41,415 nt of DNA from positions 1-41,415 of IMG/VR virus record IMGVR_UViG_3300048929_000264. One strand, 5' to 3'. This document shows, one piece after another, positions 6,197 to 37,934 of this stretch (position 1 is the first letter of the stretch; the number at the start of each line of letters is the position of its first letter). The translations under genes were made by a program, and so were the position numbers. The notes beneath the pieces were generated by a model. That model made no database searches. It had not been told where the DNA came from and saw only the letters and a list, made by a program, of their open reading frames with translations. The DNA is from a virus.

Positions 6197-6742
6197 TCAA
6201 TACTTATACTTTTCCATTTTCTCCGTAATCTCATCAATGTCCTGATAATCAAGATTTGTTATTTTCCTCAAATCTCCAGAGTACATATTGCGGAGTTGGC
6301 TCACCGTATTTATGCCAGCACGTTTCAGGCAGTTATATATCCTAACTGCAAGGTCCAGATTGTCAATGCTATCTCGGTCCGGTTCAATGCCAATGATACG
6401 GTTTGCCAATTCCTCGGCCATCTTGTCATAAGGGACTGAACCATCGGATTCACATAGATATCCAAAGATAGAAGCAACAAAAGCATTATACCAGTCACTT
6501 TTCTGCATAAATTCAGTCCGCAATATTTCTGCTGCTATCTGGAGTGATTTATTGTCACTCTTAATCTCTGCATTGTTCAGTAATATAGCTGCAGATGGCA
6601 CCAACGGAGCATAAAGAGTTAAATTTGGATAACAACCAGCTTCTATCCTCAAATTAACTCCAGATAAAAGGGCACTTATATCCGTTCCGTTCATAAGAAC
6701 AGTCGTTTTGTTTTTATCATTTTTGATTTCCACTTCTGACAT
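6197..6742 (-). CDS. Protein with RNA polymerase alpha-CTD-like domain
   Basis: A 181-residue protein. The last ~58 residues (IDNLDLAVRIYNCLKRAGINTVSQL ... LRKITNLDYQDIDEITEKM) closely follow the helix-hairpin-helix fold of the alpha subunit C-terminal domain, which in bacteria binds UP elements and activators. The N-terminal ~110 residues are unrelated to alpha: a short beta-like part, then helices. It could act as a decoy or adaptor at host promoters, or the domain may simply bind DNA. Its 3' end lies within a few bases of the next gene. Confidence 0.65.
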   Translation of the reverse strand: MSEVEIKNDKNKTTVLMNGTDISALLSGVNLRIEAGCYPNLTLYAPLVPSAAILLNNAEIKSDNKSLQIAAEILRTEFMQKSDWYNAFVASIFGYLCESDGSVPYDKMAEELANRIIGIEPDRDSIDNLDLAVRIYNCLKRAGINTVSQLRNMYSGDLRKITNLDYQDIDEITEKMEKYKY

Positions 6743-6818: not shown

Positions 6819-7280
6819 TTAATCCGATTTCCCATGCATACCTGAACAAGTAGATTCGTTTGATTTAATATAAATACTGCCTATCGGCACTGCATTGCGT
6901 GGAGAAATAAAAGAGTGCCCAATATTACCCTCGGGAAACTCGAATGAATTTATAAATGCCTGCGAAGCCTCTAAGTTTTCAAAGTCATATCTCTCACAAT
7001 CAAAATCAAGCCATGTCGGAGAACCAAATATCCAACCGTCAGTACCAATATGAAATTTACCACCTATCATGGAGTTATGTTTTACGCCCTCCCATGGCTT
7101 CTTTTCGCAGACCGAATATTCCCATTCATCAAACAATTTTCGTGCCATAACAAAATAGTTTTCTGATACAGCAATTACCTTTAACGGTTTCTTCCAATCG
7201 TTGACCTTTACTAAATCACCTGGTTTCACGGAATCTAAAACTTCTTTTGTTATGTTTAAAAAAATCTTATATTCTTTCAT
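6819..7280 (-). CDS. Hypothetical phage protein
   Basis: A 153-residue protein. The N-terminus (VKPGDLVKVNDWKKPLKVIAVSENYFVM) resembles a small SH3-like beta barrel; the remainder is aromatic and Gly-rich. The ATG at 7280 follows AAGGAG. I do not recognise the family. It lies directly beside the left inverted repeat of the tail-fibre cassettes, whose outer flank contains this gene's ribosome site. Confidence 0.55.
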   Translation of the reverse strand: MKEYKIFLNITKEVLDSVKPGDLVKVNDWKKPLKVIAVSENYFVMARKLFDEWEYSVCEKKPWEGVKHNSMIGGKFHIGTDGWIFGSPTWLDFDCERYDFENLEASQAFINSFEFPEGNIGHSFISPRNAVPIGSIYIKSNESTCSGMHGKSD

Positions 7281-7293
7281 TAATGGATCTCCT

Positions 7294-7310
7294 TAAATAG
7301 CAATTTAGCT
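7294..7310. repeat. Left 17-bp inverted repeat of tail-fibre cassette pair
   Basis: TAAATAGCAATTTAGCT, exactly repeated as its reverse complement at 7922-7938. In both cassettes the repeat is read in the same frame and encodes N-S-N-L-A, as expected of a recombination site inside a coding sequence. Confidence 0.75.
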
Positions 7311-7586
7311 ACGCATAAATCCTCTGGAGATCACGATGGACGGTACTATACGAAGGCAGCAATTGATTCTCGTCAGAGATTGGTTTGTAGCGGATACACT
7401 GGAAATGGAGCTGGCATTCGCGATATAACCGTACCCGGTTTGACAGCAATATATTTTGGAGCAATCGGAACTGGTAGGGGTAACGTTTTATATGGTCTTG
7501 ATGGGGGCGCGGGTAACGTTATTACCGTTGCCGCAGACCAAAATCTAGCGAATCGCAGTTATTTTTATGTAGCATTTGGAGTTTAA
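7296..7586 (+). CDS. Tail-fibre C-terminal cassette, rightward (no start, silent)
   Basis: An open frame of 96 residues from the left repeat to a stop at 7586. It contains DHDGRYYTKAAID, a hallmark of Firmicutes phage tail fibres and collars, then a Gly-rich beta domain VCSGYTGNGAGIRDITV ... SYFYVAFGV. There is no ATG or ribosome site and an in-frame stop lies 5 codons before the repeat, so as it stands it is a promoterless 3' module. It faces opposite to all neighbouring genes and meets the second cassette tail to tail. It would become functional only if joined to an N-terminal fibre gene. Confidence 0.65.
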   Translation, partial: NSNLATHKSSGDHDGRYYTKAAIDSRQRLVCSGYTGNGAGIRDITVPGLTAIYFGAIGTGRGNVLYGLDGGAGNVITVAADQNLANRSYFYVAFGV

Positions 7587-7594
7587 ATGATCAT

Positions 7595-7921
7595 TTATGC
7601 CTTCGGGATAATGCCATTAATTATAAGTTCTGTTGTATTGTTTACTGTTCCAGTATGTAATCTATAAAACATCTGGTTATTATTACTTGCATATGTAATT
7701 CCGCTCGCACTTAAACCAGCAGTAATTGGAAGTACACAAGTTGCTAATTGTTTCGGAAAAGTCAGCATCGGGGTATCGGTAGTGGGAGTTCCCGTTGGGA
7801 GAATAGTTATTGCAATGGCATAGTAATTTGGATGTTCAATCACCATTTGCCGTGTGATATGAAATACTCCAATATCAGATAAAGTAATTTGCTTTCCCAA
7901 ATCGTTTTTGTCAGCTTTCAA
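7595..7921 (-). CDS. Tail-fibre C-terminal cassette, leftward
   Basis: About 108 residues from a TTG at 7921; the frame is open through the right repeat to a stop at 7951. It has a short linker (NDLGKQITLSDIG) and a beta-rich tip domain (MLTFPKQLATCVLPITAG ... TELIINGIIPKA). There is no convincing ribosome site. It differs in sequence from the rightward cassette but shares its position relative to the repeat, so the two look like alternative receptor-binding ends. The upstream gene stops in the same frame five codons before the repeat. Confidence 0.6.
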   Translation of the reverse strand: MKADKNDLGKQITLSDIGVFHITRQMVIEHPNYYAIAITILPTGTPTTDTPMLTFPKQLATCVLPITAGLSASGITYASNNNQMFYRLHTGTVNNTTELIINGIIPKA

Positions 7922-7938
7922 AGCTAAATTGCTATTTA
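7922..7938. repeat. Right 17-bp inverted repeat of tail-fibre cassette pair
   Basis: AGCTAAATTGCTATTTA, the exact reverse complement of 7294-7310. The two arms enclose 611 bp holding two convergent cassettes; similarity ends sharply outside the 17 bp. I saw no other perfect copy in the window. Confidence 0.75.
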
Positions 7939-7948
7939 CATTGCCTTC

Positions 7949-8161
7949 TTACCGAAAATCTTTTTCCCATTCAACTTCAATCCTTAAGAATCTTATTCCT
8001 GTTTTCTTTCCAGAGTAACCATGTGATATAGCACTCAACACATAACCAATACTTAATCCAGACCAGTCTACCAGTTCTCTTGACGTATCTGCCACATAAA
8101 GCGGCAGCTCATATTCATTGGTTTCTACTGCCATGTACAATTTTTTCTTCATAGCATACAA
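7949..8161 (-). CDS. Small conserved phage protein
   Basis: A 70-residue protein. The motif ETNEYELPLYVADTSRELVDW ... IRFLRIEVEWE is of a type seen repeatedly in Lachnospiraceae phages and may carry a short HTH-like middle (LSIGYVLSAISHG). Two ATGs (8161 and 8152) are possible behind AAGGG. It stops 10 bp from the right inverted repeat. Function unknown. Confidence 0.6.
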   Translation of the reverse strand: MYAMKKKLYMAVETNEYELPLYVADTSRELVDWSGLSIGYVLSAISHGYSGKKTGIRFLRIEVEWEKDFR

Positions 8162-15893: not shown

Positions 15894-16649
15894 TCACGGA
15901 AAATTTTTCAAGATCAGCTCCTTATATCTCCTGCTTCTATCTTTGTTAACCAAATTATCCATTCTTTCAACCTCAACAATCGTGTATCCCTCGTACAAAT
16001 CCCTAATCTGCTGGCAATCATTATAAGACAAAATGAATTTACCTTTTATATTGCTCAGGCATTTCCGCAGCCTCTCATGGTCCTCTGGGTTAAACCGATC
16101 CGGATAATATTTCTCCGCTTCGTAATATGGAGGATCCAGATAGAAGAATGCGTCTGGTCTGTCGTATGTTTTTATCAACCGCTCAAAATCCTGATTCTCA
16201 ATTACGACTTTGTTAAGTCGGTCCGAAACCTCTCTCAGGTAGTCTACCGCTTTATGTATATCCCTGGAACTTACTCCAAATGATCTGCAGTCAGTCCCAA
16301 AACTTTCCCTAATCAAGCAGAAGAAGCGAGCTGCCCGTTGTATATCGGTCATGCCTCTGGTGTTCCGATTCAATTCATCAAAGAACAGCTCCCGTGACAT
16401 AAGCAGCCATTCCAATTCTTTCTGCAGCGGTTCCGGGTGATATTTTACCACCCGGTATAAATTAATCAATTCCCCATTCACATCATTCAAAACTTCCAAA
16501 GAAGCATGTTTGTCTTTAGAAAATAATACCCAACCAGCCCCGCCAAACACTTCAATATACCTGTTATATGAATCCTGATTTGGAAACTGTTCCAGTATTT
16601 GTTTCCTTAATAACTTTTTTCCACCAATCCAGCTAATAAAACTATTCAT
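15894..16649 (-). CDS. DNA adenine N6-methyltransferase, Dam/D12 class
   Basis: A 251-residue protein of the alpha-class N6-adenine methyltransferases. Motif I is FISWIGGKKLLRKQI with YIEVFGGAGWVLF, and the catalytic DPPY is within FFYLDPPYYEAEKYY. Length and motif order match the D12 family. The recognition site cannot be read from sequence; GATC is only a guess from the family. The ATG follows GGGGG. No restriction enzyme gene lies beside it, so host-avoidance or regulation is more likely than a restriction-modification pair. Confidence 0.9.
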   Translation of the reverse strand: MNSFISWIGGKKLLRKQILEQFPNQDSYNRYIEVFGGAGWVLFSKDKHASLEVLNDVNGELINLYRVVKYHPEPLQKELEWLLMSRELFFDELNRNTRGMTDIQRAARFFCLIRESFGTDCRSFGVSSRDIHKAVDYLREVSDRLNKVVIENQDFERLIKTYDRPDAFFYLDPPYYEAEKYYPDRFNPEDHERLRKCLSNIKGKFILSYNDCQQIRDLYEGYTIVEVERMDNLVNKDRSRRYKELILKNFP

Positions 16650-16689
16650 TACAAAGCCCCCTTTTTGGAGAATCTCAACAGAACAATTA

Positions 16690-17721
16690 TTAGAAATCTA
16701 AAAGATGAAATTTACATGCTATTTCCTGAATTACTTTTACTGTTACGCCATTACCTGCCTGTTTATAAAGCTGATTATCGCTATTAACCAAAGCGGCTTG
16801 ATCAAAATAATAATCTTTCCAGCCTTGCAGACGAAAACACTCTCTTGGAGTAAGTTTTCGTATTATAGGAATTTTGTTTTTTTCACATACAACTGCTTGA
16901 TTGCATGCAGTTGTCAATGTATGAGTCCTCCCTTTTCCAACTCGGCCACGTCTTGTTTCGCTATTTATATAGTCAAGACTTATACTATCTCCTACCTCAG
17001 CTAATGTGTAACCTTTTACATTTGCATCTCGAATTAATATACCTTTTGGACGTTTCTTGAGCTTTAGTAATGGAAGATTATTTTTGCTGCTTGTTCCTCT
17101 GACAGGTAATATTTCTCTTCTGCTTCTTCCTCTAAGAAACCCAATAATGAACACTCTTTCTCTGCTTTGTGGGATTCCGAAATCTTTAGTATTGAGAACT
17201 TGCCATTCTGCATCATAGCCGATCTCATCCAATTCAATGAGAAGTTTGGCAAAATCAAGCCCTCTATTAACACTAAGTAGGTTTTTAACGTTCTCAATAA
17301 ATAAGATTGAGGGCCTATCCGCTTCTTCGAGGTCTCTAATAAGTCCTGTAACTGTAAAAAACAGGCTTGAACGTTTCCCAGCAAATCCAAGTCTTTTTCC
17401 GGCAATGGAAATATCTTGACAAGGGAATCCGAAACACCATGCATCTGCTTTTGGCAACTCTCTGGCTGTAATTGTTCTGATGTCATTTGCATACCATTCT
17501 CCATTCCTATATTCCTCCTTTAAAATTTCTTTTTGCCTTTCTCTATACGGAAACTGAAGAAGGTATTGGTTTTGCTCTTTCGATATTAAATGCATAGATG
17601 TATAACTCATTACTGCATACTTATCCCATTCGCAGAAGCCAACACATCTATGACCAGCAAGTTCCATTCCTTTTCTAAATCCTCCGATGCCAGAAAAAAA
17701 ATCTAAAAATGTAAGATTCAT
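16690..17721 (-). CDS. C5 cytosine methyltransferase A
   Basis: 343 residues. Motif I LTFLDFFSGIGGFRKGME, catalytic GFPCQDIS (Cys101), motif VI FIENVKNL, motif VIII QSRERVFIIGF and C-terminal YKQAGNGVTV give a complete m5C methyltransferase. The frame is open 34 codons further up, to a GTG at 17823. The family fold, however, starts at the ATG at 17721, and the DNA just before that ATG belongs to the same leader type as three other genes here. Target specificity is unknown. Confidence 0.9.
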   Translation of the reverse strand: MNLTFLDFFSGIGGFRKGMELAGHRCVGFCEWDKYAVMSYTSMHLISKEQNQYLLQFPYRERQKEILKEEYRNGEWYANDIRTITARELPKADAWCFGFPCQDISIAGKRLGFAGKRSSLFFTVTGLIRDLEEADRPSILFIENVKNLLSVNRGLDFAKLLIELDEIGYDAEWQVLNTKDFGIPQSRERVFIIGFLRGRSRREILPVRGTSSKNNLPLLKLKKRPKGILIRDANVKGYTLAEVGDSISLDYINSETRRGRVGKGRTHTLTTACNQAVVCEKNKIPIIRKLTPRECFRLQGWKDYYFDQAALVNSDNQLYKQAGNGVTVKVIQEIACKFHLLDF

Positions 17722-17770
17722 TTTAAAAAGAAGCCGCTGCAGCTTTCGTCCGGATGACTTCGCTCCTTTC
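17722..17770 (-). promoter_or_regulatory. Palindromic leader D (C5 methyltransferase A)
   Basis: Minus strand: GAAAGGAG (17770-17763), then palindromes TCCGGA (17754-17749) and GCTGCAGC (17743-17736), then CTTCTTTTT and the ATG. The Shine-Dalgarno-like box is 41 nt from the ATG and no nearer ribosome site exists. Confidence 0.55.
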
Positions 17771-17826
17771 AATTTGATATCGTGATTGAGCATAGCACAT
17801 ATCTTGACTGCACTTCTATGCACTTA

Positions 17827-18195
17827 TTAACTACTTTTATTGATTTTTTGTAATGCTCTGGTATGAATATTATAAATTTGTCTGTCGCTATAACCCATTT
17901 TTTCAGCAATTGCTTCCCAATGGTAACCACGCATGTAACGGTATTTAATTAACCGCTTCTCCTGCTCATCACTCAAAGCTTCGATTTTATCATACAGATT
18001 TACACAGCTTTTTATTTTTTGATACCGATAGTAAGAAACCTTATGATTTAGATCTTTTAAGACAGAAACATATTTCTTATCATAACCATGTGTATTTATT
18101 TCCGTCTCAATCATCTGGATTTCTTCGTCAGCTTCAGCAATGGCAGCATTGATAACAACCAAGCTTTTAAGTTGATCTCTTGTCTCATTTCCCAT
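17827..18195 (-). CDS. Sigma region-4-like phage regulator
   Basis: A 122-residue protein. The C-terminal LSDEQEKRLIKYRYMRGYHWEAIAEKMGYSDRQIYNIHTRALQKI is a sigma-70 region-4 type helix-turn-helix, as in phage late regulators of the ArpU/RinA/DUF1492 kind. Its ATG overlaps the stop of the recombinase gene (TAATG). The expected role is activation of late or packaging genes. A start four codons up is possible. Confidence 0.75.
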   Translation of the reverse strand: MGNETRDQLKSLVVINAAIAEADEEIQMIETEINTHGYDKKYVSVLKDLNHKVSYYRYQKIKSCVNLYDKIEALSDEQEKRLIKYRYMRGYHWEAIAEKMGYSDRQIYNIHTRALQKINKSS

Positions 18196-19232
18196 TATCC
18201 TGCACACCTCTCTCTCACACTTCTTAATGTATTCGGTGTGGATTGAGCGTAATAAATAGCCGTTACTGAAGGGCTAGAATGTCTCAAAATCTCCTGAATG
18301 GTACCAATATCCACTCCTTTATTTTTAAGATTCATCCCCAGCGTTTTACGCAATTTATGAGGATATACCCGGCATTTTAATCTAGCTCGATTGCCAATGC
18401 ATTTTAAGATGCTCCGGATTCCAGAAGTTGACAGTTTCTTATGGGGCGCCCTGCATTGAGGAAACATAAACGGACTTTCGTCATTCCTTAAATCCAGATA
18501 CTGCCTGTAATAATATCGTGCATCATCATCTAAGAATATAGGTTCATACCTATCATTCTTTTCTCCCTGGATCATAATATCCCCGGTGTTCCAATCTATC
18601 TGGTCCAAGGTGATTTCCACCAGTTCCCCAACTCTGGCTCCGGTGCTCCGCAATACTTCAATTAATGCGCGATCCCTAGAACTCTTGCATGCATCCCTCA
18701 TCTTTGCCATTTCTTCTGACTTGAAATAATCAATCGGCTTTCTGATTGCCTTTAATGGATCTGTAGCTTCTACAGGATTGTCACTAATTAATTTTTCTTT
18801 TCTCATCCAGGTGAAGAAAGCAGACAGGAAACGCCTTTCATTATTCACAGTTACGGCTTGATTCTTTTTGCCACCAGTATTAACATTACGTTTCTCATAC
18901 CAAGAAAGATAATAGAAAACATCGGAATCTTCTATTCTGTCCAGAGGCTTGTCAATCAGGGTTATCAGGCGCTTAATGGCTCCAAGATATGCTTCCTTTG
19001 TATTGTCCTTTATTTTCTTTTTAACAATGAATAGCTGAATAATATACTTATTCTTCTGATCCATATCATTCTGATACTCTATCGGGAGTGTTGTGATTTC
19101 CTCCATATTAACATTTACAAATTCCCTTACAATCACCTGATGAAGGATATCCAATATTTCTTTAGCCACATGCCCTGACATGGCAACAATGATATTGTTG
19201 ATTACCTGAGTTTTGATTGTTTGTCCATTCAT
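18195..19232 (-). CDS. Tyrosine recombinase (integrase or invertase)
   Basis: 345 residues. The catalytic set is complete: STGARVGELVEI (Arg), PHKLRKT (His-x-x-Arg), LRHSS (His) and AIYYAQS (Tyr). A SAM-like core-binding domain lies at about 70-150, behind an N-terminal helical extension of about 60 residues. Such extended XerC/D-like recombinases occur in Clostridia as both integrases and DNA invertases. ATG at 19232 behind AGGAG. It is the only recombinase in the window and so a candidate for acting on the 17-bp repeats at 7.3/7.9 kb. No att site was identified. Confidence 0.85.
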   Translation of the reverse strand: MNGQTIKTQVINNIIVAMSGHVAKEILDILHQVIVREFVNVNMEEITTLPIEYQNDMDQKNKYIIQLFIVKKKIKDNTKEAYLGAIKRLITLIDKPLDRIEDSDVFYYLSWYEKRNVNTGGKKNQAVTVNNERRFLSAFFTWMRKEKLISDNPVEATDPLKAIRKPIDYFKSEEMAKMRDACKSSRDRALIEVLRSTGARVGELVEITLDQIDWNTGDIMIQGEKNDRYEPIFLDDDARYYYRQYLDLRNDESPFMFPQCRAPHKKLSTSGIRSILKCIGNRARLKCRVYPHKLRKTLGMNLKNKGVDIGTIQEILRHSSPSVTAIYYAQSTPNTLRSVRERCAG

Positions 19233-19263
19233 GATTCTATCTCTCCTTTTCATATAAATTCAG

Positions 19264-19292
19264 TTGCTTAAGGAGATGTTTTGCTTTATAAT
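19264..19292 (+). promoter_or_regulatory. Rightward promoter
   Basis: -35 TTGCTT (19264-19269), 17 bp spacer, perfect -10 TATAAT (19287-19292). The inverted repeat GCTTAAGGA/TCCTTAAGC (19266-19274 and 19294-19302) brackets it and could be an operator. Confidence 0.65.
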
Positions 19293-19298
19293 ATCCTT

Positions 19299-19418
19299 AA
19301 GCGTGTAGCGGTAGAAGAACTTTGGTCGGGGACTCTGCCGCTTATTTATTGGTTTGAAATTCGAATGTATGTTCTTTTTAGGCTATTTTTTTACCGGGGA
19401 CTATGCCCCGGCTTTTTT
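19299..19418 (+). ncRNA. Probable small RNA antisense to the operon direction
   Basis: About 120 nt from the promoter to an intrinsic terminator with no ribosome site or credible frame. Hairpin 1 is AGCGG/CCGCT (about 19307-19341). Hairpin 2 is the terminator. Both loops carry the related string GGGGACTMTGCC. The rest of the gap to 19567 is AT-rich, then a GC hairpin ACCGGC/GCCGGT around 19529-19552, with no gene seen. Confidence 0.5.
19393..19418 (+). terminator. Intrinsic terminator
   Basis: CCGGGG-ACTATG-CCCCGG (19394-19411) followed by C and six T's. Confidence 0.8.
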
Positions 19419-19567
19419 ATGCTGTTAATAAAAATGGTAAAATTTTACATCCATTTACCAATTTTATTTTGCTATAATATTATTGCATATGCATCTTTTC
19501 AATTTTATGTATGTGTTTTTCATACTCATACCGGCGGGGGAAACCTTGCCGGTCCCCCCCAGGGTTT

Positions 19568-19780
19568 TTATTTCTCAAAGGATTCCAGTTCTTCGATCTT
19601 CTGAAACAAATCCCTCTCCTCATGATCCCTTTTAGGATATTGCTGATATGTAACTTTGCACTGTTTCCCTGCCACATACTGGTTGTAGTAATGTCTAGCC
19701 AAATCTAACGGAATATCCTGGTGCTTTCCTGTCAATGTACATTTACTTTTATCCTTGTATATAATCCTTATTTTCCACAT
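19568..19780 (-). CDS. Small conserved phage protein
   Basis: 70 residues: MWKIRIIYKDKSKCTLTGKH, then HYYNQYVAGKQCKVTYQQYP and an acidic helical tail. The pattern is familiar from phages of Lachnospiraceae; the function is unknown. The start overlaps the 3' end of the PAPS-reductase-like gene by 13 bp, with AAAGGA upstream. Confidence 0.65.
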   Translation of the reverse strand: MWKIRIIYKDKSKCTLTGKHQDIPLDLARHYYNQYVAGKQCKVTYQQYPKRDHEERDLFQKIEELESFEK

Positions 19781-20823
19781 GGTCCGTTCCTTTCTTCATT
19801 CAAAAAATCAGCAAGATTCATTTGCCCCACCGATTCCCAAGTTTCATACGGTATGCCAAGGTAATCCAACGGTATCCCCATTCCAAGGCCACCATTTTCC
19901 AATGGCTTAAAACATAAACGGTAATATCTTGGGTGTGTAACTGACATTCTTTGAAAGCGGTTAGGCTCTGTTTCCAAATGAGCCCCGAAAGCGCAAAACA
20001 TGCATCCGGTCCGCTGCTCTCCTGTAAGATAATAATTTCCACAAGAAGATTGCTTAATGTCACCATATACTGAGCATATTTCCAAATCGTTCTCAATGAC
20101 ATATCTCAATACATCTTGCTTAGTCCAAAATCCCATAGGCTGGCTCTTAATCGTTTTTCCATCATATACATTGCATCCGGTATTCGCATAAAGATGCGCT
20201 CTCATGAATCCTTCATCTTGCGTTGTTCCAATAAAAGGGACCCGTCCAGTTTCCTTTGTATATTTTTTTAAAGGGTTCTTTTTCATTACATCACAGCATT
20301 TTTCAGAAGTATCAAAAGGTGCATTCAAGAGACATCTCCATTTTTTCGGGAGAACTCCAAAAGAACCCCTTTCATCTCCATTCAACAAGTAATTTCTGTA
20401 TCTTTCTGATAAATTTCCATGTCTTAGTTTCCTGATTTTTATAGCAGTTTCCTTACTTACTAGTGGATATCCTTCATTCAAGACAACGTCTCGGTATGTA
20501 ATGCGATTTCCTTTTTTATCCCTTGGTTCTATTTCTTTAAATTCTCCCGGCGCTTTCCGGGAAAATCGGACAATTTCAGGGAATTCCAAACCCGTGTTTG
20601 AAAACACTGCAGGAACATCTTCACCCAATGTCTTGCGGATCAGGTGAAGTAACACAGTGCTATCCAGTCCACCGGAATAACTGAGATATACTTGACCTCC
20701 CCAGTTGTCATACCATTCTTGGATTCTTGACTTTGTCAATCTTAACTTAGTTTCCCAAGACAAGTGTTTTCTCTGTGCAAATTGCCATGCATTAAGTTGT
20801 AAATCATCTTCTTTTATAAACAT
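19768..20823 (-). CDS. PAPS reductase-like PP-loop protein
   Basis: 351 residues of the PAPS reductase/DndC superfamily. The PP-loop SYSGGLDST (residues 48-56) activates substrates with ATP. Later come KKWRC, EKCCDV and TGCMFCAFGAHLE (CxxC at 274-277), a cysteine set compatible with an Fe-S cluster as in DndC-like enzymes. Phage members often have unknown targets. It shares a distinctive leader with three methyltransferase-type genes and sits among them, so a nucleic-acid modification role (for example sulfur chemistry) is a reasonable inference. Sulfate assimilation in a phage is less likely. Confidence 0.8.
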   Translation of the reverse strand: MFIKEDDLQLNAWQFAQRKHLSWETKLRLTKSRIQEWYDNWGGQVYLSYSGGLDSTVLLHLIRKTLGEDVPAVFSNTGLEFPEIVRFSRKAPGEFKEIEPRDKKGNRITYRDVVLNEGYPLVSKETAIKIRKLRHGNLSERYRNYLLNGDERGSFGVLPKKWRCLLNAPFDTSEKCCDVMKKNPLKKYTKETGRVPFIGTTQDEGFMRAHLYANTGCNVYDGKTIKSQPMGFWTKQDVLRYVIENDLEICSVYGDIKQSSCGNYYLTGEQRTGCMFCAFGAHLETEPNRFQRMSVTHPRYYRLCFKPLENGGLGMGIPLDYLGIPYETWESVGQMNLADFLNEERNGPCGK

Positions 20824-20874
20824 TTCCGAAAGGAGTCGACACGTGTCTCCTGCGCAGAAGCTCCATCTCCTTTC
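20824..20874 (-). promoter_or_regulatory. Palindromic leader A (PAPS reductase-like gene)
   Basis: Minus strand: GAAAGGAG (20874-20867), palindromes CTGCGCAG (20857-20850) and GACACGTGTC (20847-20838), then CTCCTTTC (20835-20828), the exact complement of the first box, 4 nt before the ATG. Box to ATG is 43 nt. Confidence 0.6.
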
Positions 20875-20892
20875 CCATTATTCAATTAAATC

Positions 20893-21096
20893 TCAATTGA
20901 TTTGCTTCTTTGCCAGGTCATTCATGAAGCCAGTTCCCAGACTGAAATTTTCGACTCCATCAATTGTCACAGAATCTATAGCGAAAGTTCTGTCCCCGGC
21001 CTCTTGCATTACTGCAAGGATAAGGTCCTTCACTTTGTTGTGGCTGTCACAATCTGTATTGATTTCAATATTAATCTGCATCTTTTTAATAGCCAT
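20893..21096 (-). CDS. Small hypothetical protein
   Basis: 67 residues, MAIKKMQINIEINTDCDS ... GDRTFAIDSVTIDGVENFSLG. The ATG at 21096 follows GAAAGGAG at normal spacing, preferred over the longer frame. It lies between the C5 methyltransferase B and the PAPS-like gene. It has one Cys and no recognised domain. Confidence 0.6.
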   Translation of the reverse strand: MAIKKMQINIEINTDCDSHNKVKDLILAVMQEAGDRTFAIDSVTIDGVENFSLGTGFMNDLAKKQIN

Positions 21097-21130
21097 ATAA
21101 AACTCCTTTCGATAAGAAAATACTAATTCG

Positions 21131-22777
21131 CTAAGCAAACCTAAGTTGTTCTTGGCTGTCATCAATCTTTAAATTGGGCATTCGCTCTCCGACTTTCAAA
21201 TACGGTACATTAGCTTCAGTCAGTACTTTTGCTAACCCTGGACAAACGCTATTTCCGATCCTTTTTACCTGTTCTGAGATTGTTATTGCAGTCCCGTCCG
21301 AATAAGTATCAATTAAGTAGTCAATCGGGAATCCCTGTGCAAGTTTCAGTTCTTCGGGTGAAAGCATACGTAAATAAATGTCTGCAATACAGTACTCATT
21401 CCCGAGAATAGTAATTAATGCAAATCTATCTTTTGTAACAATAGTATGTAATGGATCACTTAAATTCTGTCCAGTACCGCAACCATAATATTCCATAATA
21501 AACTGCGATACCCATGTACATTTTTGAGCAACTTCTTCTGATATACCAGCTTCTTTTAATTTTCTCCATTCAATGGCCTTTATAGTAACTTGTCCAAAAT
21601 GTCCGGGACTTGTGGTTATAGTATGGAGTGGAGAAGATAAATCTTGCCCGGTACCAGTCTTATAGAACTTAGTCAAAAATGAACTTAATAGAGCATATCT
21701 GTTGCTTGTATCAATGGTTTGAATGGGCTCTTTTACCTGTTGTCCTCGTGGTTGGCTACTGGTTTCTGAATGATATTGGATTATAAATGGAGAAGTTAAA
21801 TAGTGTTTATTCCCACCGGACACAACTGTATTTAATGAATTATCTATGCTATTTACTCTAGCTGACTGCCCTTCTCTTTCACCATAACCGATCTGAGTAA
21901 TGTATGGCGTTACCATTCCAACACCATTTTTTTGAGTTATTGTAGGCATCGGATTATCAATACTCTGTCCACGGAAATTATCACCACCATGATTAACGGT
22001 TACCAGGAAAGGTTTGGGATTGTTAAATACGAACTTGTCCATCCCTCCAGCTATCCGTTTCATTGTCTTTTCTGCTAATGGTTTATTCCTTCCGAATATG
22101 GATTTTCCTAAATCATTGAAATTCAATACATTACTAACTGGGACCCATTTTTTTAGCCCATTAGTGCCATCTTTACAATGAGTCGGCTCTGGCCAGACTA
22201 TTTGTCGTCCATCACATCTGAATATTGCAAACCACCTTTTTCTTGTAGTGGGGACTCCGTAATCGGCTGCTACCAATTCCCGGCATTCAAATTTATATCC
22301 AAGAGCCTTCATAGAATTAATAAACTTCTTATAATCCTCTCCTTTTCGTTCCTTAATTGGCTTATCATTTGCATCTAATGGACCCCAATCTTGAATTTCT
22401 GAAACATTCTCCATGATAATTACTTCCGGAAGATTCCCTGTAATATTTTTAACTTGGACACATAATCGGCGGACCCCATAAGGAAGTATTCTTAGACCTC
22501 TCTCAACGGGCTTTCCTCCCTTAGCTCTACTATGCTGTGTACAATCTGGACTTGCCCACATAAACCTTACAATGTCGTCACGTCTAAGCCTATTTTCGAG
22601 TGTTACTTTCATAATATCTTCTGTATAATGATAAGTCCATGGGTGATTTCGCAAATGCATTTTTATTGCAAACGGATCATGATTTATTGCAAAATCAACA
22701 GCACGCCCTAGCTCCATTTCAATTCCAACACTTGCTCCGCCTCCTCCGGCGAAACAATCAATAATTAAGTCTCTCAT
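21131..22777 (-). CDS. C5 cytosine methyltransferase B with repeated target region
   Basis: 548 residues. Motif I IIDCFAGGGGASVGIE; catalytic MWASPDCTQHS (Cys79) with PDC in place of the usual PCQ, a variant seen in phage enzymes; motif VI IMENVSE; motif VIII TTRKRWFAIFR; C-terminal RIGNSVCPGL. The segment 270-457 holds five modules of the type GQ-x(4-9)-P-x-x-T-[IV] (NPMPTIT, NSLNTVV, EPIQTID, SPLHTIT, DPLHTIV), probably target-recognition repeats. It is preceded by a palindromic leader. Confidence 0.9.
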   Translation of the reverse strand: MRDLIIDCFAGGGGASVGIEMELGRAVDFAINHDPFAIKMHLRNHPWTYHYTEDIMKVTLENRLRRDDIVRFMWASPDCTQHSRAKGGKPVERGLRILPYGVRRLCVQVKNITGNLPEVIIMENVSEIQDWGPLDANDKPIKERKGEDYKKFINSMKALGYKFECRELVAADYGVPTTRKRWFAIFRCDGRQIVWPEPTHCKDGTNGLKKWVPVSNVLNFNDLGKSIFGRNKPLAEKTMKRIAGGMDKFVFNNPKPFLVTVNHGGDNFRGQSIDNPMPTITQKNGVGMVTPYITQIGYGEREGQSARVNSIDNSLNTVVSGGNKHYLTSPFIIQYHSETSSQPRGQQVKEPIQTIDTSNRYALLSSFLTKFYKTGTGQDLSSPLHTITTSPGHFGQVTIKAIEWRKLKEAGISEEVAQKCTWVSQFIMEYYGCGTGQNLSDPLHTIVTKDRFALITILGNEYCIADIYLRMLSPEELKLAQGFPIDYLIDTYSDGTAITISEQVKRIGNSVCPGLAKVLTEANVPYLKVGERMPNLKIDDSQEQLRFA

Positions 22778-22828
22778 CTTTCAAAAAGGTTCCGTGTACA
22801 CTCTCCCGGCCGGGGAACGGTTCCTTTC
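22778..22828 (-). promoter_or_regulatory. Palindromic leader B (C5 methyltransferase B)
   Basis: Minus strand: GAAAGGA (22828-22822), palindromes CCCGGCCGGG (22814-22805) and GTGTACAC (22801-22794), then CCTTTTT and GAAAG before the ATG. Box to ATG is 44 nt. A weak GAAAG sits directly before the ATG. Confidence 0.55.
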
Positions 22829-22829
22829 A

Positions 22830-23243
22830 TTATTTTTGTTTTCCTGTTCTCCAAATCCCTTCAAGCTCTTCCAGAGTTACGTGAATCAGGAGGTTACTTA
22901 TAAAACTACAATTACCATATTCTTTGGACATGGCTCCGATCATATCAACAAGACCATTCCAATATTCATCTGAATCATTTGGTTCGCTGTACTGTTTAAA
23001 CAGCTTCCATGCTCCAGTAAGACATTCTTCATATTGCTTGTCCTGAAGAGGAATACCCCCAAATTTAATGCGCTTTATTTCCTGCCAGACAACCAGGCAG
23101 AACAGCCGGTCCATAACAGGAGCCTCATGTTTCTTTATCATCTGCGCCACATGCTCCGGCTTAACCATCTGTCGATTCTTCATAAGTTTCCATGCGTCCG
23201 TATAGGCGGACCAGTACTTTCTAAGTTCGCTTTCTTCCATCAT
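22830..23243 (-). CDS. Hypothetical helical protein
   Basis: 137 residues, almost entirely helical and rich in Trp/Lys (ELRKYWSAYTDAWKLMKNR ... LTGAWKLFKQYSEPND). The ATG at 23243 follows AAGG; its 5' end overlaps the HAD gene by 23 bp. The family is unknown to me, though it resembles phage accessory proteins with repeated YW-W helices. Confidence 0.55.
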   Translation of the reverse strand: MMEESELRKYWSAYTDAWKLMKNRQMVKPEHVAQMIKKHEAPVMDRLFCLVVWQEIKRIKFGGIPLQDKQYEECLTGAWKLFKQYSEPNDSDEYWNGLVDMIGAMSKEYGNCSFISNLLIHVTLEELEGIWRTGKQK

Positions 23244-23595
23244 CTTCACCACCTTGATATGGAATTCGATATCCGGCTTTTATTTTTGCCTTATCGTCTA
23301 TGTAAACATCAGCAAATATCTTTCTTGAATCATTTCCGAAATACTCTATCATTTCAGGCAAATTCTCATTCACAGCGTCAAATTCCAGGTCGAATCCTCG
23401 GCACCATGAAACAGCTTCTTCTAAACGATTTCCACATCTACAAGTCCAGAGAATTACTATGTTTCCCTCTCTGCGCCTTTTAATCAAATGCTTAATCAGT
23501 GCAGTGTTGGGACTACCAATTCCCGGCCAAACACTTTCGCATAAAGTCCCATCAAAATCCACCGCATAAATTGTAAATTTTCTACTTTCGTTCAT
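23221..23595 (-). CDS. HAD-superfamily phosphatase-like protein
   Basis: 124 residues. YAVDFDGTLCES is the HAD nucleophile motif I (DxDGT), VILWTCRCG is motif II, and ADVYIDDKAKI is the acidic motif IV. The cap is minimal. Phages carry such short HADs, sometimes acting on nucleotides or on 5'/3' phosphates; the substrate is not predictable. It overlaps both neighbours, so it is part of one translated block. Confidence 0.8.
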   Translation of the reverse strand: MNESRKFTIYAVDFDGTLCESVWPGIGSPNTALIKHLIKRRREGNIVILWTCRCGNRLEEAVSWCRGFDLEFDAVNENLPEMIEYFGNDSRKIFADVYIDDKAKIKAGYRIPYQGGEDDGRKRT

Positions 23596-23869
23596 AACCC
23601 ACCGCCTTTACGCTTCGTTCACAGAGGAAACAAGTATCATCACCAAGTCTCCCATCATAATGCTTACAGGTCCCGCAGTTCCTTCCGGTCCACCATATTG
23701 TTATCTTTCGTAAAAACATATGTAAGTTATATCCCATATCCGATATACCTCCGTTATTCACAGAAAAACACGGAATGAAAAACGCCCATAAACAATTCGG
23801 GTTTTTCGTAATACAAATTCCTACGGAAACTGCAACACCTACGCTTACCCATTTAACCCAATTCTTCAA
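23582..23869 (-). CDS. Small membrane/cysteine-motif protein
   Basis: 95 residues from TTG at 23869 behind AAAGGAG. It has a hydrophobic N-terminus (about 4-36) and a C-terminal CGTCKHYDGRLGDDTCFLC four-cysteine motif. The halves look unrelated, and an internal ATG at 23737 could start the second half alone. Function unknown. Confidence 0.5.
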   Translation of the reverse strand: MKNWVKWVSVGVAVSVGICITKNPNCLWAFFIPCFSVNNGGISDMGYNLHMFLRKITIWWTGRNCGTCKHYDGRLGDDTCFLCERSVKAVGYERK

Positions 23870-23897
23870 GGTTAGTTCTCCTTTCTCATACTTTACC

Positions 23898-26405
23898 TCA
23901 AGCTATTATTTCAGTCATAAAATCAAATAATGTAGGTGTATCTATATTATCCTCTGCTGCCTGTAGGTACCCAACACCATCTCTGAAATAATCAGGATTT
24001 AATTCTATTCCGTATCCTCGCCGCCCCATTTTAATAGCTGTCATAGGTACTGTCATAAGACCCGCAAACGGATCTGCTACGAGGTCACCCTCATTGGAAT
24101 ATCTGTTAACAATGCGCTCCACGATATCCAACTGTAAAGGGCACACATGGAGTTGAGCTCTTCTACGACTCTGGCTACTATTTAGGGTCCGCATACGATT
24201 AATATCGTCCCATATTTCCCAGGTCCAACTTCCCGGCGCAACAACCATAAATGTAGCTGGGAGTTTATCTTCTGAATCAAGTTTCTTAGCCAGTTCTACA
24301 TGCTCTTTATAGTCATAAACATGGTCCCTGCTGTATTTTCTGTAAACAGCCTGAAGATTCTTTACTGAAACATTTTCTAACTCTTCTTTTCTAATAAGAC
24401 GGTCACCTGAAGATCTCCAAAATCCGTGAGCGTCTATCTGCCATTGCGCCCTAGTATATTCTTCTTTGGTCTTTTTCACAGGAGTATCTGCATAAGCCGT
24501 TGATCTGTCAGTAGGAAGTTTCCTAAAAAGCAAAACATATTCAGGACAACCCACTCCCATTTTGCTTCCATCTTTGCATTGCTCTGTCCAGCCCAGCCGG
24601 TAAGTCTGATTATTCTCTCTTACTACATCAGTAACAATCGTAATCATGCCAAAATACTGGAATCCATGTTTTATATAATGGCTGATACAATCAGAATGAA
24701 AAGGTTCAACTGTTGGCATTCCTGTCCCTGTAGCATTTCCAAAAAGCACACGATCCTTAACATGAATAGCAGCTACTCTTCCTGGTTGCAGAATCCTTAG
24801 AAGCTCCGGCGTTAGAAAATCCATCTGCTTAAAGAATTTTTCTGTATCCTGATTGTGCCCGAAATCATTATAGTTCGCAGTATATTCATAGTGGTTTCCA
24901 AAAGGTATTGATGTATGAATTAATCCCACACTATCATTCTTCATTCTCTTTGTTTCTTCCACACAATCATCATATACTGCAGTATACTTACTTCCCTCAA
25001 CCTTCACTGTTTCAACCCCCAACTTACGTTCTAACCGCTTATCTCTCCCTGCCGCTGATAATCCATACTTTCTTACAATTTCAATCATTTTTTCAACCAT
25101 ATAATTATGATTCTTCCACTTTTCCAGTAACACATCTTTTATTTCTCTCTCATTTTCCATGTAGATAATATCAATAATGACTGGCTCCTTTTGCAGAAAA
25201 CGGTAACACCTATGTATAGCCTGAATAAAATCATTAAATTCGTAATCAATCCCCAGGAATATTTCTCTATGACAATGCTTTTGAAAATTGCAACCAGAAC
25301 CAGATAATTCTTTCTTTGTAGCAAACCACTGGCAACGACCTTCTGAAAAGTCTATGACTCTTCGTTCTCTGATCTCATAATCCTGCGAACCATAGATATC
25401 AACAGATTCCGGCACCGCTTTCTTAATTGCTAATCTCTCTGCTTCTAAATCATGCCATAGTATGAAATGAGCGGCCGGATCAGATTCAATAATCTCTCTC
25501 ATTTTCCTTGTTCTAACATCAATGCTCTCACGCTTTACTTGAGCTGCTTCTTTTAACCCTGCTGCCGCCTCATTAAATAGTTGAAATTGACCGTCCCTAT
25601 TAACGGCATCACCGTATCTTACAGGAAGTTCATGCCATCTTACATCTAATGGTGGAAGAACATACCCTTCATCTAAATAATTTGGATTTACATCTGATGG
25701 CTTTGTAATGAATAACGCCCAACTACTTACCCAAAGCCAGAACTCATCTTCCATATTTGGATATAGGGTTAAATTGTTTGCCTTTGTAGAGTCTCTCTGG
25801 AAGAACCTTGTCAATGCCTGACCAGTATCCATTACCCCGAGATATCCTCCATAATGAATCAGCTCTTTATATTTATTTGGGCTTGGAGTTGCCGTAGCTA
25901 CAAGCTTATAAGGCACTTCTTTGAATTTATCTAAAAATATCTGATATGTTTTACTTCCAAAGCTTCTTAAAACACTAGCTTCATCAAGAGAAGTTGCCAT
26001 GAAATAACTGGGCTCTATATCACCATCACGGACACGTTCATAATTTGTAATGAGAATACCGGCATCTGCCGATTCAACTTCTTTCATTGTCCTGACGTAT
26101 ATAAGCTTTTCATATCCAAGAATGGTTTCAGCGTCCCTTATGAACTCCTGCTTAACGCCTAAAGGACAAACAATAAGAGCTTTACCTCCAAATTTCTTAA
26201 TAACCTGATAGCAGAACTCTATTTCCTGAACTGTTTTCCCAAGACCGAAGCTTTCAAATAGTGCACGACAACCACCTTTCAAGACCCATACAACAGCGTC
26301 ACCCTGATGTAATTTCAATGCCTTATTGATACTGCTCCTATCTACGATAAATCCTGTATCCGTTGCAATTTCTATTTTAGTTTTTAAAAACTCTAAATAA
26401 TCCAT
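23898..26405 (-). CDS. SNF2-type helicase fused to DNA methyltransferase
   Basis: 835 residues. The N-terminal half is a superfamily 2 translocase: P-loop ESFGLGKTV (Lys57), Walker B-like LDEAS (141-144, where DEAH/DEAD is usual), motif III TATPSP, and C-terminal motif QAIHRCYRFLQ (about 395-405). The second half is an amino-methyltransferase: catalytic TSIPFGNHYEY (near 500) and the AdoMet-binding DPFAGLMTVPMTAIKMGRRGYGIELN near the C-terminus. Such fusions occur in phages and resemble single-chain type I-like or ISP-type enzymes without a nuclease. I see no nuclease motif. Confidence 0.85.
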   Translation of the reverse strand: MDYLEFLKTKIEIATDTGFIVDRSSINKALKLHQGDAVVWVLKGGCRALFESFGLGKTVQEIEFCYQVIKKFGGKALIVCPLGVKQEFIRDAETILGYEKLIYVRTMKEVESADAGILITNYERVRDGDIEPSYFMATSLDEASVLRSFGSKTYQIFLDKFKEVPYKLVATATPSPNKYKELIHYGGYLGVMDTGQALTRFFQRDSTKANNLTLYPNMEDEFWLWVSSWALFITKPSDVNPNYLDEGYVLPPLDVRWHELPVRYGDAVNRDGQFQLFNEAAAGLKEAAQVKRESIDVRTRKMREIIESDPAAHFILWHDLEAERLAIKKAVPESVDIYGSQDYEIRERRVIDFSEGRCQWFATKKELSGSGCNFQKHCHREIFLGIDYEFNDFIQAIHRCYRFLQKEPVIIDIIYMENEREIKDVLLEKWKNHNYMVEKMIEIVRKYGLSAAGRDKRLERKLGVETVKVEGSKYTAVYDDCVEETKRMKNDSVGLIHTSIPFGNHYEYTANYNDFGHNQDTEKFFKQMDFLTPELLRILQPGRVAAIHVKDRVLFGNATGTGMPTVEPFHSDCISHYIKHGFQYFGMITIVTDVVRENNQTYRLGWTEQCKDGSKMGVGCPEYVLLFRKLPTDRSTAYADTPVKKTKEEYTRAQWQIDAHGFWRSSGDRLIRKEELENVSVKNLQAVYRKYSRDHVYDYKEHVELAKKLDSEDKLPATFMVVAPGSWTWEIWDDINRMRTLNSSQSRRRAQLHVCPLQLDIVERIVNRYSNEGDLVADPFAGLMTVPMTAIKMGRRGYGIELNPDYFRDGVGYLQAAEDNIDTPTLFDFMTEIIA

Positions 26406-26482: not shown

Positions 26483-26818
26483 TTACTTAATATATCGTTC
26501 CTGTAAATCAGTTTTATGCTCCCTGCAAACCAGAACAGCTTTGCCATATTCACAGGGAATCGCACAGAAATCATCATCGTTACAATAGGGTATCCACTCT
26601 TCGCCGCATATTGGACAATGGTTATTCCTGACCATGTGATTATTAAATCCGGCCGGTTCCTCCTCAATATATCCACCTAACTGATCCGCATCAACAAGCC
26701 TCTGAATAGCTGGATCAGGTTTGAAAGATTCATGCTCATATTTTATACGCCTGATTTCTGCCTTTTCCCTATCAAACTCTTTATTTCGTGGTGGAGCCTG
26801 CCCAATTGCTTTTGACAT
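26483..26818 (-). CDS. Zinc-binding hypothetical protein
   Basis: 111 residues. The polar N-terminus is rich in Arg/Glu; the C-terminus has NHCPICGEEWIPYCNDD ... IPCEYGKAVLVC, six cysteines plus His, likely one zinc site. The ATG at 26818 follows AGGAGG. It precedes the helicase-methyltransferase leader, so it is the upstream operon partner. Function unknown. Confidence 0.6.
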   Translation of the reverse strand: MSKAIGQAPPRNKEFDREKAEIRRIKYEHESFKPDPAIQRLVDADQLGGYIEEEPAGFNNHMVRNNHCPICGEEWIPYCNDDDFCAIPCEYGKAVLVCREHKTDLQERYIK

Positions 26819-26842
26819 GCCTTTCCTCCTCAAAATCCTAAT

Positions 26843-27097
26843 TTACTCATACAGCCTTTGCCCGCAAAATTCACAATACTTCTTCAATGGATTTCCTGTT
26901 CCTAAGACAATAGTGCCGCAAGTAGGGCAATAGCTACCGCAAGTATGTGGTTGTTTAACCATTTGCTTTTCTACTGCATGTATGGCAACGTCAAACGCTT
27001 CCCCAAAGGCCAATTTTTCTTTTGCATCTGCCACCATATTGTCATTGCATCTCTTAGTCTGCTTTAATATTTTTAACGCTTGTTCTGAATTAATCAC
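26843..27097 (-). CDS. Small zinc-ribbon protein
   Basis: 84 residues. The helical N-terminal half is followed by CGSYCPTCGTIV ... KYCEFCGQRLY, a rubredoxin-like zinc ribbon. Starts at GTG (27097) behind GAGAGG. A CACGGC/GCCGTG stem lies in its upstream leader (27124-27166). Such small ribbons are common accessory genes in Clostridia phages. Confidence 0.65.
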   Translation of the reverse strand: MINSEQALKILKQTKRCNDNMVADAKEKLAFGEAFDVAIHAVEKQMVKQPHTCGSYCPTCGTIVLGTGNPLKKYCEFCGQRLYE

Positions 27098-27172
27098 TCT
27101 AAAATACCTCTCTTTCTTCCTTCGACCACGGCCCTCTTAGTCAGGTCGGGAGGTTGTGTAGTGCCGTGCGCA

Positions 27173-27604
27173 TTACCCATTTAATAAAAATTGCTGCGTT
27201 TCAAGCCGTTCATAAATCGTCTGACCGCTTGATGTTTCAATGTACGGAAGGAAAATTTCCTCAAAGCGTACCATTTCTATATCCAATAACGCCATCTGTG
27301 CCTCTACCCAATCTTTTAAGATTCTCCATGCTACACGCTCCGCCTGTTCTCTTATAGCCTTTATGCTGCTCCTTGGATTTTTCTTTTTCTCCTGCTTCAT
27401 AACCTCCAGGCATTCACTTACCTTTACAGGCAAGCGGACCGGGATCTGCTGGCCTCCTGTATCAATCAAAAACGAAAGTCCGGTGATGCTTTCACCCTCG
27501 TAATTCTTCATGATTGATTTTGCCTTATGTCTCATGAGTATGTATTCTATTTCCGATACGGTCTTGAAAGCGTCAACCGTTGTCGTGTAGTTTAAAATAG
27601 CCAC
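27173..27604 (-). CDS. Conserved phage protein
   Basis: 143 residues with the recurring pattern MAILNYTTTVDAFKTVSEIE ... GLSFLIDTGGQQIPVRLP ... VAWRILKDWVEAQMALLDIEM. This is widely seen in Firmicutes phages near replication genes; its function is unknown. GTG start at 27604 behind AAAGGAG. Confidence 0.7.
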   Translation of the reverse strand: MAILNYTTTVDAFKTVSEIEYILMRHKAKSIMKNYEGESITGLSFLIDTGGQQIPVRLPVKVSECLEVMKQEKKKNPRSSIKAIREQAERVAWRILKDWVEAQMALLDIEMVRFEEIFLPYIETSSGQTIYERLETQQFLLNG

Positions 27605-34835: not shown

Positions 34836-35423
34836 CTATCTGTAATTTTTCAATTTTGATTTCATCTTTTTTAATATGTTTTTTTCCAATCGGCTGATAT
34901 AAGATTGAGAAATTCCAAGCCGTTCAGCCACTTGTTTTTGAGTGTGTACTTTTTCACCAAGACCATAAAGTAAGCAGATGATCTTACATTCTCTATCCGG
35001 AAGAGAACATATTACATCATAAAGCTTTTCCTTCTGCTCAACCTGTTCAACGTTATCAAATGATTCATCTTCATACTCCAACACATCTGCTATCGATAGT
35101 GTAATTCCATCTGAATCACAATTTATTATGGTTTCAAATGAGATATTGGAAGAGTGCTTTTTCATTTTTCGTATATACATTAAAATTTCATTACGGATTA
35201 CCATCGATGCGTAAGTTGCAAACTGAATTTCTTTGTCTAAATTAAAAGTATCCACTGCTTTAATCAGACCAATCATGGCAACTGATTCATAATCCTCTTC
35301 ATAGCTGAACTTCTGCGCTACTGAAATAGCCAGCCTTATATTATTTTTGATTAAGCACTCTCTTCTGTCCTGAGGTTCCATGGAACGAAGCATTTCAATA
35401 TCATTTTGATCTTTATTAAACAT
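34836..35423 (-). CDS. Sigma-70-like factor
   Basis: 195 residues. Region 2 (NNIRLAISVAQKFSYEEDYESVAMIGLIKAVDTFNLDKEIQFATYASMVIRNEI) and region 4 (LPDRECKIICLLYGL ... TQKQVAERLGISQSYISRLEKN) are both present; region 3 is short, as in sporulation and ECF-like sigmas. It could redirect polymerase to phage promoters. The start at 35423 lacks a strong ribosome site; the frame is open 40 codons further, overlapping the radical SAM gene. Confidence 0.8.
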   Translation of the reverse strand: MFNKDQNDIEMLRSMEPQDRRECLIKNNIRLAISVAQKFSYEEDYESVAMIGLIKAVDTFNLDKEIQFATYASMVIRNEILMYIRKMKKHSSNISFETIINCDSDGITLSIADVLEYEDESFDNVEQVEQKEKLYDVICSLPDRECKIICLLYGLGEKVHTQKQVAERLGISQSYISRLEKNILKKMKSKLKNYR

Positions 35424-35481
35424 GGGAATGCTTTTCTCACTGCAAATCGTAGTAATCAACTCCTTTACTAAAAGAGTGCAT

Positions 35482-36048
35482 CTACTCCTTTTCCAAATCG
35501 TAATAAACCAGTTCTTCATTATCAGGTAGTGGGCATTCATCATCTTTCCATACCAAAGATTTAATGCTCGACCAGTGCTTTACACCTGTATCATTCAAAC
35601 CGATAATGCTTAGCACCTCCTCGGTATAGCACCGGCTGTCAATCAGCAAGCGATCTGAACGGTTATGCTTCCGGTTATCAAGGTTCTCAAGAAGAAATTT
35701 GTTCAGCTTACGAACATCACTCAAATCTTTCTGTGATGGCTTGTGATGTAAGGTATATGTAATCCCGTTTACCTCTTGCAGAACTGCTCTATCAGCCCAT
35801 CTGGCTGTCTTAATGCAAGAAGTGTAAAGCCAAATCTTTCCCTTGTATCCATTTTCTCGGAGCCGATGAATCATCTCCACCACTCTCGGGGCAATTTCCA
35901 TCGGTTCGCCGCCAGTAATGACTAGCTCCTTATATTTCAATAAATCTTCAAAATTGACCTGTGGTACATTGCCGATATGCTCATTACAGCAGTTTGGGCA
36001 ATTTCGGGGACAATCGTATGTAACTATTACTCTCGCAACGTCTTTCAT
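35482..36048 (-). CDS. Radical SAM protein
   Basis: 188 residues. VTYDCPRNCPNCCNE gives the CxxxCxxC iron-sulfur motif (Cys13, 17, 20), and ELVITGGEPMEIAP the GGE AdoMet motif. The size and pattern are similar to small phage radical SAM enzymes related to QueE or NrdG activases. No NrdD or queuosine partner gene is in the window, so the substrate is unknown. ATG behind GAAAGGAG. Confidence 0.85.
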   Translation of the reverse strand: MKDVARVIVTYDCPRNCPNCCNEHIGNVPQVNFEDLLKYKELVITGGEPMEIAPRVVEMIHRLRENGYKGKIWLYTSCIKTARWADRAVLQEVNGITYTLHHKPSQKDLSDVRKLNKFLLENLDNRKHNRSDRLLIDSRCYTEEVLSIIGLNDTGVKHWSSIKSLVWKDDECPLPDNEELVYYDLEKE

Positions 36049-37741: not shown

Positions 37742-37743
37742 GA

Positions 37744-37932
37744 TTATTTATCCCCTTTCTGGTTTCTGAACATCTGCTTAAATCTGTCAAGCCAATTGAC
37801 ACCTATTGCCTGACGAACCATATTTCTAGAATTACTACGGTATGCTGTCGCTGTTGCTACACTTCCAAGAACCTTACGATTCTGATAAAAACTCCGGTGA
37901 CTTCTTTGTTTGTGCTTAAATGCTCCTGCCAT
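37744..37932 (-). CDS. Small basic phage protein
   Basis: 62 residues, strongly basic: MAGAFKHKQRSHRSFYQNRK ... FKQMFRNQKGDK. Proteins of this form (MAGxFKHxxRSHRSFY) are common beside recT in Clostridia phages; probably RNA/DNA binding, function unknown. ATG behind AAAAGGAG. Confidence 0.65.
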   Translation of the reverse strand: MAGAFKHKQRSHRSFYQNRKVLGSVATATAYRSNSRNMVRQAIGVNWLDRFKQMFRNQKGDK

Positions 37933-37934
37933 AT

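Follow-up and report, generated by a model that had tools for sequence, protein, structure and literature searches.

The DNA analysed here (the window) is the whole of a 41,415-base virus record, IMGVR_UViG_3300048929_000264, which is classed as 'linear' and is probably a fragment of a longer phage genome. At 7294-7938 it carries a slot bounded by two putative crossover sites that form a perfect 17-bp inverted repeat: the left outer site, TAAATAGCAATTTAGCT at 7294-7310 (+), with its core AAATAGCAATTT at 7295-7306, and its exact inverted partner at 7922-7938 (−). An open frame without a start codon reads inward from each site, beginning N-S-N-L-A in both cases, and we refer to the two products as silent fibre tips A (7296-7586, +; 96 aa) and B (7595-7936, −; 113 aa). 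The tips are unrelated to each other and converge on a 12-bp central palindrome, AAATGATCATTT (7585-7596), that overlaps both stop codons. Two genes of unknown function border the slot, one encoding 153 aa (6819-7280, −) and the other 70 aa (7949-8161, −). Also adjoining the slot, at 6197-6742 (−), is the gene for a 181-aa phage protein with a C-terminal RNA polymerase alpha C-terminal domain (PF03118, E 2.8e-17).

The repeat search and the frames confirm what a first-pass annotation had read from the letters alone, namely that perfect 17-bp repeats, both in frame as N-S-N-L-A, enclose two different convergent tips. Its statement that no N-terminal fibre gene lies beside the repeats, and that stops occur within about five codons, also holds: neither flank of 7294-7938 carries a fibre N-terminus, and an in-frame stop is found four codons outside each site, with WISL in one case and EGNV in the other separating the stop from NSNLA. 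Only one of 150 Markov simulations of the window, made with the same dinucleotide make-up, gave any 17-bp inverted pair spaced 300-1300 bp apart, and this figure was counted before frame or open reading frames were required. No further copy of the repeat is present in this record, even when 3 mismatches are allowed. Given that the record is 'linear' and probably a fragment, the presence of just two copies is uninformative about the phage as a whole.

Neither tip matched annotated phages by tblastn, and neither matched Pfam or PHROGs; they are therefore placed by their site, their frame and their relatives. The silent tip that tip A resembles (L109; 44% identity) occupies another slot, and the C-terminal 37 aa of tip B are 84% identical to a silent tip that has another partner and stands at the end of contig L108. 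A protein search for the window tips in near relatives came back empty, which fits full replacement of the slot contents, though an empty answer is weak evidence. The window tips were not found in a live position anywhere. Structure models built from the single tip sequences were of poor quality (mean pLDDT 37 and 51) and were left unused.

The window is a 41-kb piece of a 76-85 kb temperate phage family that infects Lachnospiraceae (Lacrimispora and relatives). Relatives of its tyrosine recombinase (18195-19253, −) that are 82-91% identical are found in viral contigs of up to 85 kb and in the genomes of Lacrimispora xylanisolvens and Clostridium sp. E02. The genes around the recombinase (15894-26405, −) include four DNA methylase genes, comprising one of the D12 class, two C-5 cytosine methylases and an N6/N4 methylase fused to an SNF2-like part, as well as a gene for a PAPS-reductase-domain protein. 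The region 34836-36048 (−) encodes a small protein that has a 4Fe-4S (radical-SAM-like) match and whose end is overlapped by a sigma-70-like factor.

Fibre genes and remote silent pairs in related phages

The exact 17-mer is present in 16 other viral contigs, and in several of these it lies inside a long open frame and in the same N-S-N-L frame; some of the 16 matches are probably due to chance. In five phages the in-frame site lies inside a tail-fibre gene (G005 at 52712, G001 at 61183, G008 at 26977, G009 at 54831 and G022 at 25910). PHROGs identifies the collagen-like fibre genes (G005, L014) as tail fibres, and that of L014 stands between tape-measure/tail genes and a holin; for the other shaft type (G022) the tail-fibre matches are weak. 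In other contigs, the site begins a silent tip that faces a live one. These pairs were recovered by an unbiased scan for convergent open frames bounded by inverted 12-mers, which gave few outward-facing controls.

Longer records contain a single live fibre junction, which an inverted partner tip usually faces, plus at least one remote silent pair. We found three remote pairs in G005 (37511, 59850 and 74823, with the live junction at 52712), two in G022, one each in G001 and G009, and others in G020 and G015. In G015, a more distant phage whose recombinase is 58% identical, the live pair (18325) and the remote pair (954) are 17 kb apart. Most remote tips are still open for 90-116 codons though they lack a start, and some are truncated (G020, G022, G005). 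Phage G004 and the window have a remote pair and no site-bearing fibre gene within their records; judged by synteny with G001 and G002, the window phage's own fibre gene should lie about 10-16 kb past the left end of the window.

These relatives bear on both readings that the first-pass annotation had offered. The in-frame copy of the repeat that it expected in an N-terminal fibre gene is found in the relatives' tail-fibre genes, though not in the window record. Together with the remote pairs, this supports its suggestion that the locus stores silent tips for recombination with a fibre gene beyond the window, the switching itself being inferred. Its alternative, a displaced switch, is unsupported, since relatives possess an intact switch at the fibre gene and a remote pair at the same time.

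Within a genome the sites tend to match in their details. Clostridium sp. E02 uses one altered core, AAATAGCGATTT, for its live pair and for one remote pair, which is what would be expected if recombination needs matching sites. A further pair in the same genome has the core AAATATCAATTT on both sides, which mismatches its live site and would match only itself. The core AAATATCAATTT (N-I-N-L) stands on both sides of the remote pair at G020 C11 106089-106740 (L141), where it is unlike the live site of that genome; this pair is perhaps a separate compatibility group. Several hosts have more than one site-bearing fibre locus (G021 C8 and C16; G020 C11 and C89).

A fixed slot with replaced contents

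The slot of the window has equivalents in G005 (37511-38119), G004 (26768-27396) and G022 (46669-47187). Both border genes have an orthologue at the G005 slot, and one of them has an orthologue at the G004 slot: orthologues of the 6819-7280 gene that are 83-84% identical border the slot in G005 and G004, and an orthologue of the 7949-8161 gene that is 76% identical borders it in G005. When the four phages are compared on the 6819-7280 side, identity is 91-99% over the 100 bases outside the site and 11-41% over the 100 bases inside it, which is no more than unrelated sequences show. At the opposite end of the slot, the flanks of the window and G022 share 88% identity and those of the other pairs 50-68%, and the sequence inside is again unrelated. 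Four phages hold four different tip sets in one slot, and these alignments show its contents to have been replaced. In G008 and G009, the 7949-8161 border gene is present with no pair beside it. Tips at one slot are unrelated rather than point variants of one another, unlike the adenine-directed substitutions within nearly identical repeats that mark a diversity-generating retroelement, although no specific search for a reverse transcriptase was made.

The same tips are observed live in one phage and silent in another, and their homology begins sharply at the site. A live tip (L005) and a silent one (L011) are 100% identical for the 109 nt between position −2 of the site and the end of the contig; the live tip of L007 and the silent tip of L013 are 92.8% identical over 334 nt from −3; and the live tip of G011 and the silent tip of G013 are 97.8% identical over 313 nt from −1, with unrelated sequence upstream. 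These best identities link a fibre gene to the partner position in another phage. The matches between live and clearly remote tips are weaker, at 56% (G021 live, G020 remote) and 39% (G001 live, G004 remote) at the protein level. L038 and L039 have fibre shafts that are 94% identical and live tips that differ, and in one metagenome the same tip is joined at the site to different fibre shafts (L007 at 712; L012 at 6331, −).

Some contigs end close to the site. L153 (5617-5743) stops precisely 127 nt past the beginning of the site, as would result from an assembler word length of 127 and two upstream contexts of the tip; a search for the other context returned the same contig only. L012 ends 78 nt into the stretch that it has in common with L007, and L005 ends at 109 nt. 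Such ends hint at mixed states, a hint on which we do not rely because L037, which comes from the isolate that gave L005, is inconsistent with a single length.

The recombinase, the central palindrome and a proposed exchange of tips

The window encodes an Xer-like tyrosine recombinase of 352 aa (PF00589), whose nearest solved relatives are XerA and XerD and in which the expected R, HxxR, H and Y positions are visible in the alignment. It had been put forward in the first-pass annotation, as an enzyme 11 kb away, and it remains the only conserved candidate: it is found in all 11 family records, and a serine recombinase (PF00239) occurs in just one of the 11, in a 551-aa frame, and not in the window. 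Among nine records with a recombinase relative of 54-61% identity, six contain an inverted site pair. This co-occurrence extends down to 57-61% identity, and in G018 and G019, whose relatives are 54% identical, the enzyme is present and no site pair was found. The enzyme therefore likely acts on the sites, its activity being inferred. A second integrase gene at the contig end in some relatives (G005, G008, G009) is likely the lysogeny integrase.

We consider it probable that the slot at 7294-7938, a remote fibre gene with an in-frame site and the Xer-like recombinase make up a dispersed, shufflon-like archive from which fibre tips are exchanged. The recombinase would recombine the sites, and because the fibre gene carries the same site in frame, any tip that starts there could fuse to the shaft. 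Inversion at the fibre gene would swap the two local tips, as in Mu or P1. A remote pair with inverted outer sites could replace the local pair as a unit, through two inversions or a double reciprocal exchange, and would leave the order of the backbone unchanged. In G001, G005, G008, G009 and G022 the orientation of the live gene relative to the recombinase is constant, which rules out fixed large inversions of the backbone; any such inversions are at most transient. The identity of the enzyme, the timing, the order of crossovers and exchange within one phage line are inferences: the comparisons are all between different phages, no reads or paired isolates show two states and, in the absence of reads, switching within one line has not been directly observed.

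The central palindrome may provide a further route. It has the same 4-bp arms as the outer core and a different centre, reading AAAT-GATC-ATTT (symmetric) where the outer site reads AAAT-AGCA-ATTT. Exact copies of AAATGATCATTT number 13 in the 710 kb of phage and adjoining host DNA, all of them between inverted outer sites, and none arose when the window and G005 were each simulated 60 times. Most of the tips listed have this element, or a close variant of it, after their stop. In two clear cases the homology of moved tips stops at the central element, between the window and L108 (at TAAATGATCATT), where the likeness of tip B ends, and between L039 and L011 (at AAATAATCATTT). Two live loci with a single tip, L131 5590-6531 (in G022) and L159 from 5607, have the reversed outer site directly after the stop, the partner tip and the centre being missing; from their sequence, they look as if the partner had been removed between the centre and the outer site. 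The first-pass annotation described the pair correctly and missed both this palindrome and the repeated replacement of the slot contents.

If the palindrome is also a site, it would permit the exchange of single tips. In engineered recombinase-mediated cassette exchange, a unit flanked by two sites that are alike in their arms and unlike in their centres can be replaced by a double crossover. A natural version, in which tips have unlike ends with the same arms and one recombinase swaps them singly across an 80-kb genome with the backbone neither deleted nor inverted, is an idea that we put forward tentatively, as somewhat short of an even prospect. The layout of two different sites with shared arms and the ends of homology match it, and no exchange has been shown; the known process is engineered, and its natural use here is a hypothesis. 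It is also possible, though we lean against it, that the palindrome is merely a compact two-way stop or end-of-gene element and that tips move only as pairs or via the outer sites. It does have stop codons on both strands, just where both frames end, and there is no biochemical evidence for it as a recombination site. However, a stop does not need a fixed 12 bp with the arms of the outer site, nor does it explain why AAATGATCATTT is found nowhere else in 710 kb and marks the homology end of moved tips, or why the outer site comes straight after the stop of the live tip in G022 and L159, as if after a centre-to-outer deletion.

The archive reading also has to be weighed against the possibility that the slots are only landing places, with tips spreading between phages (by co-infection, or where a cell has several prophages) and remote pairs arising as by-products that rarely return to a fibre gene. 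We regard this as unlikely, though well worth keeping in view: the clearest matches link different phages and different fibre shafts, several hosts have more than one site-bearing fibre locus (G021, G020) and some remote tips have decayed. By-products would nevertheless not be expected to stay open for 90-116 codons without expression, as most remote tips do, and the slot always holds a convergent pair with both sites kept, the sites matching within a genome. Improbable in our judgement is homologous exchange, by a RecT pathway or host recombination acting on short shared sequence, with the tyrosine recombinase serving another job such as dimer resolution. The window does encode RecT (36812-37741; PF03837) and an SSB-like protein, and its recombinase lies in the early region, away from the fibre gene; but the shared sequence is only 12-17 bp, the boundaries are exact and the core has paired arms. 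Moreover, the tip arrays of L011 and L013, whose site is nearly identical, adjoin a different Xer-like recombinase. In L011 (7286-11624) it stands directly beside the fibre gene among several silent tips, the site variants include TGTAGCAATTTA, and one tip is 96% identical to a tip in L039.

Slightly more doubtful still is a degenerate Mu-type switch, in which the window pair would be a displaced copy of the fibre switch that now has no function. It would account for the absence of an adjoining fibre shaft and of in-frame expression signals. It would not be expected to leave four different tip sets in the same slot of four phages, both window tips fully open and similar slots elsewhere in the relatives.

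Relation to known switches and significance

In the G segment of Mu and the C segment of P1 (Gin/Cin), two convergent tips lie between inverted sites, with the constant part of the fibre at one end and a serine invertase as the enzyme. The fibre locus of the relatives shares this arrangement of tips, inverted sites and constant part. The window pair differs from it, having no adjoining constant part at a segment end, and no serine invertase is found in the window, or in the family save in one record. The Rci shufflon of R64 is a contiguous array in which convergent partial genes lie between inverted sites and a constant gene gains one of several C-termini. We know of no central element in the R64 Rci or Min shufflons. 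Min of p15B is also a contiguous array and is served by a serine recombinase (PMC6109161). The present system resembles both in its convergent partial genes bounded by inverted sites and in a constant gene with alternative C-termini, and is unlike them in not being contiguous.

The closest known system is the Rin shufflon of Bifidobacterium prophages, in which a phage tyrosine recombinase that lacks an arm-binding domain and is separate from the lysogeny integrase acts with an 11-bp asymmetric rix site, TTCCCTAACCC, found at the start of each receptor-binding tip (PMC6109161). As here, a constant N-terminus is combined with replaceable, unrelated C-termini; in Rin, however, all tips stand in one array between the constant gene and rin (PMC6109161). 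The slots described here are far from both the fibre gene and the recombinase, they hold convergent pairs with a central palindrome, and their site is AAATAGCAATTT rather than TTCCCTAACCC. A tyrosine-family recombinase encoded with the element (its activity on the site being inferred) and a constant gene with an in-frame site (in relatives) are criteria of a shufflon that are met. A single contiguous array beside the constant gene is one that is not, the remote pairs lying kilobases to tens of kilobases away. The system thus works like a shufflon, most like Rin, and adds remote fixed slots and a central element. The literature search, which was confined to open-licence papers, turned up neither a dispersed archive of fibre tips nor a Lacrimispora system.

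The fibre switches known so far select from a small number of tips adjoining the fibre gene, whereas here the choices are scattered over the phage genome in fixed slots, an arrangement that would let the archive grow, be traded among phages and be re-used. The palindrome, if it is a second type of site, would make the system a natural parallel to engineered cassette exchange. As a simple sequence handle, the site pair can be used to find such archives elsewhere, and the model gives a testable account of how phages of anaerobes change their receptor-binding tips while the rest of the particle is kept.
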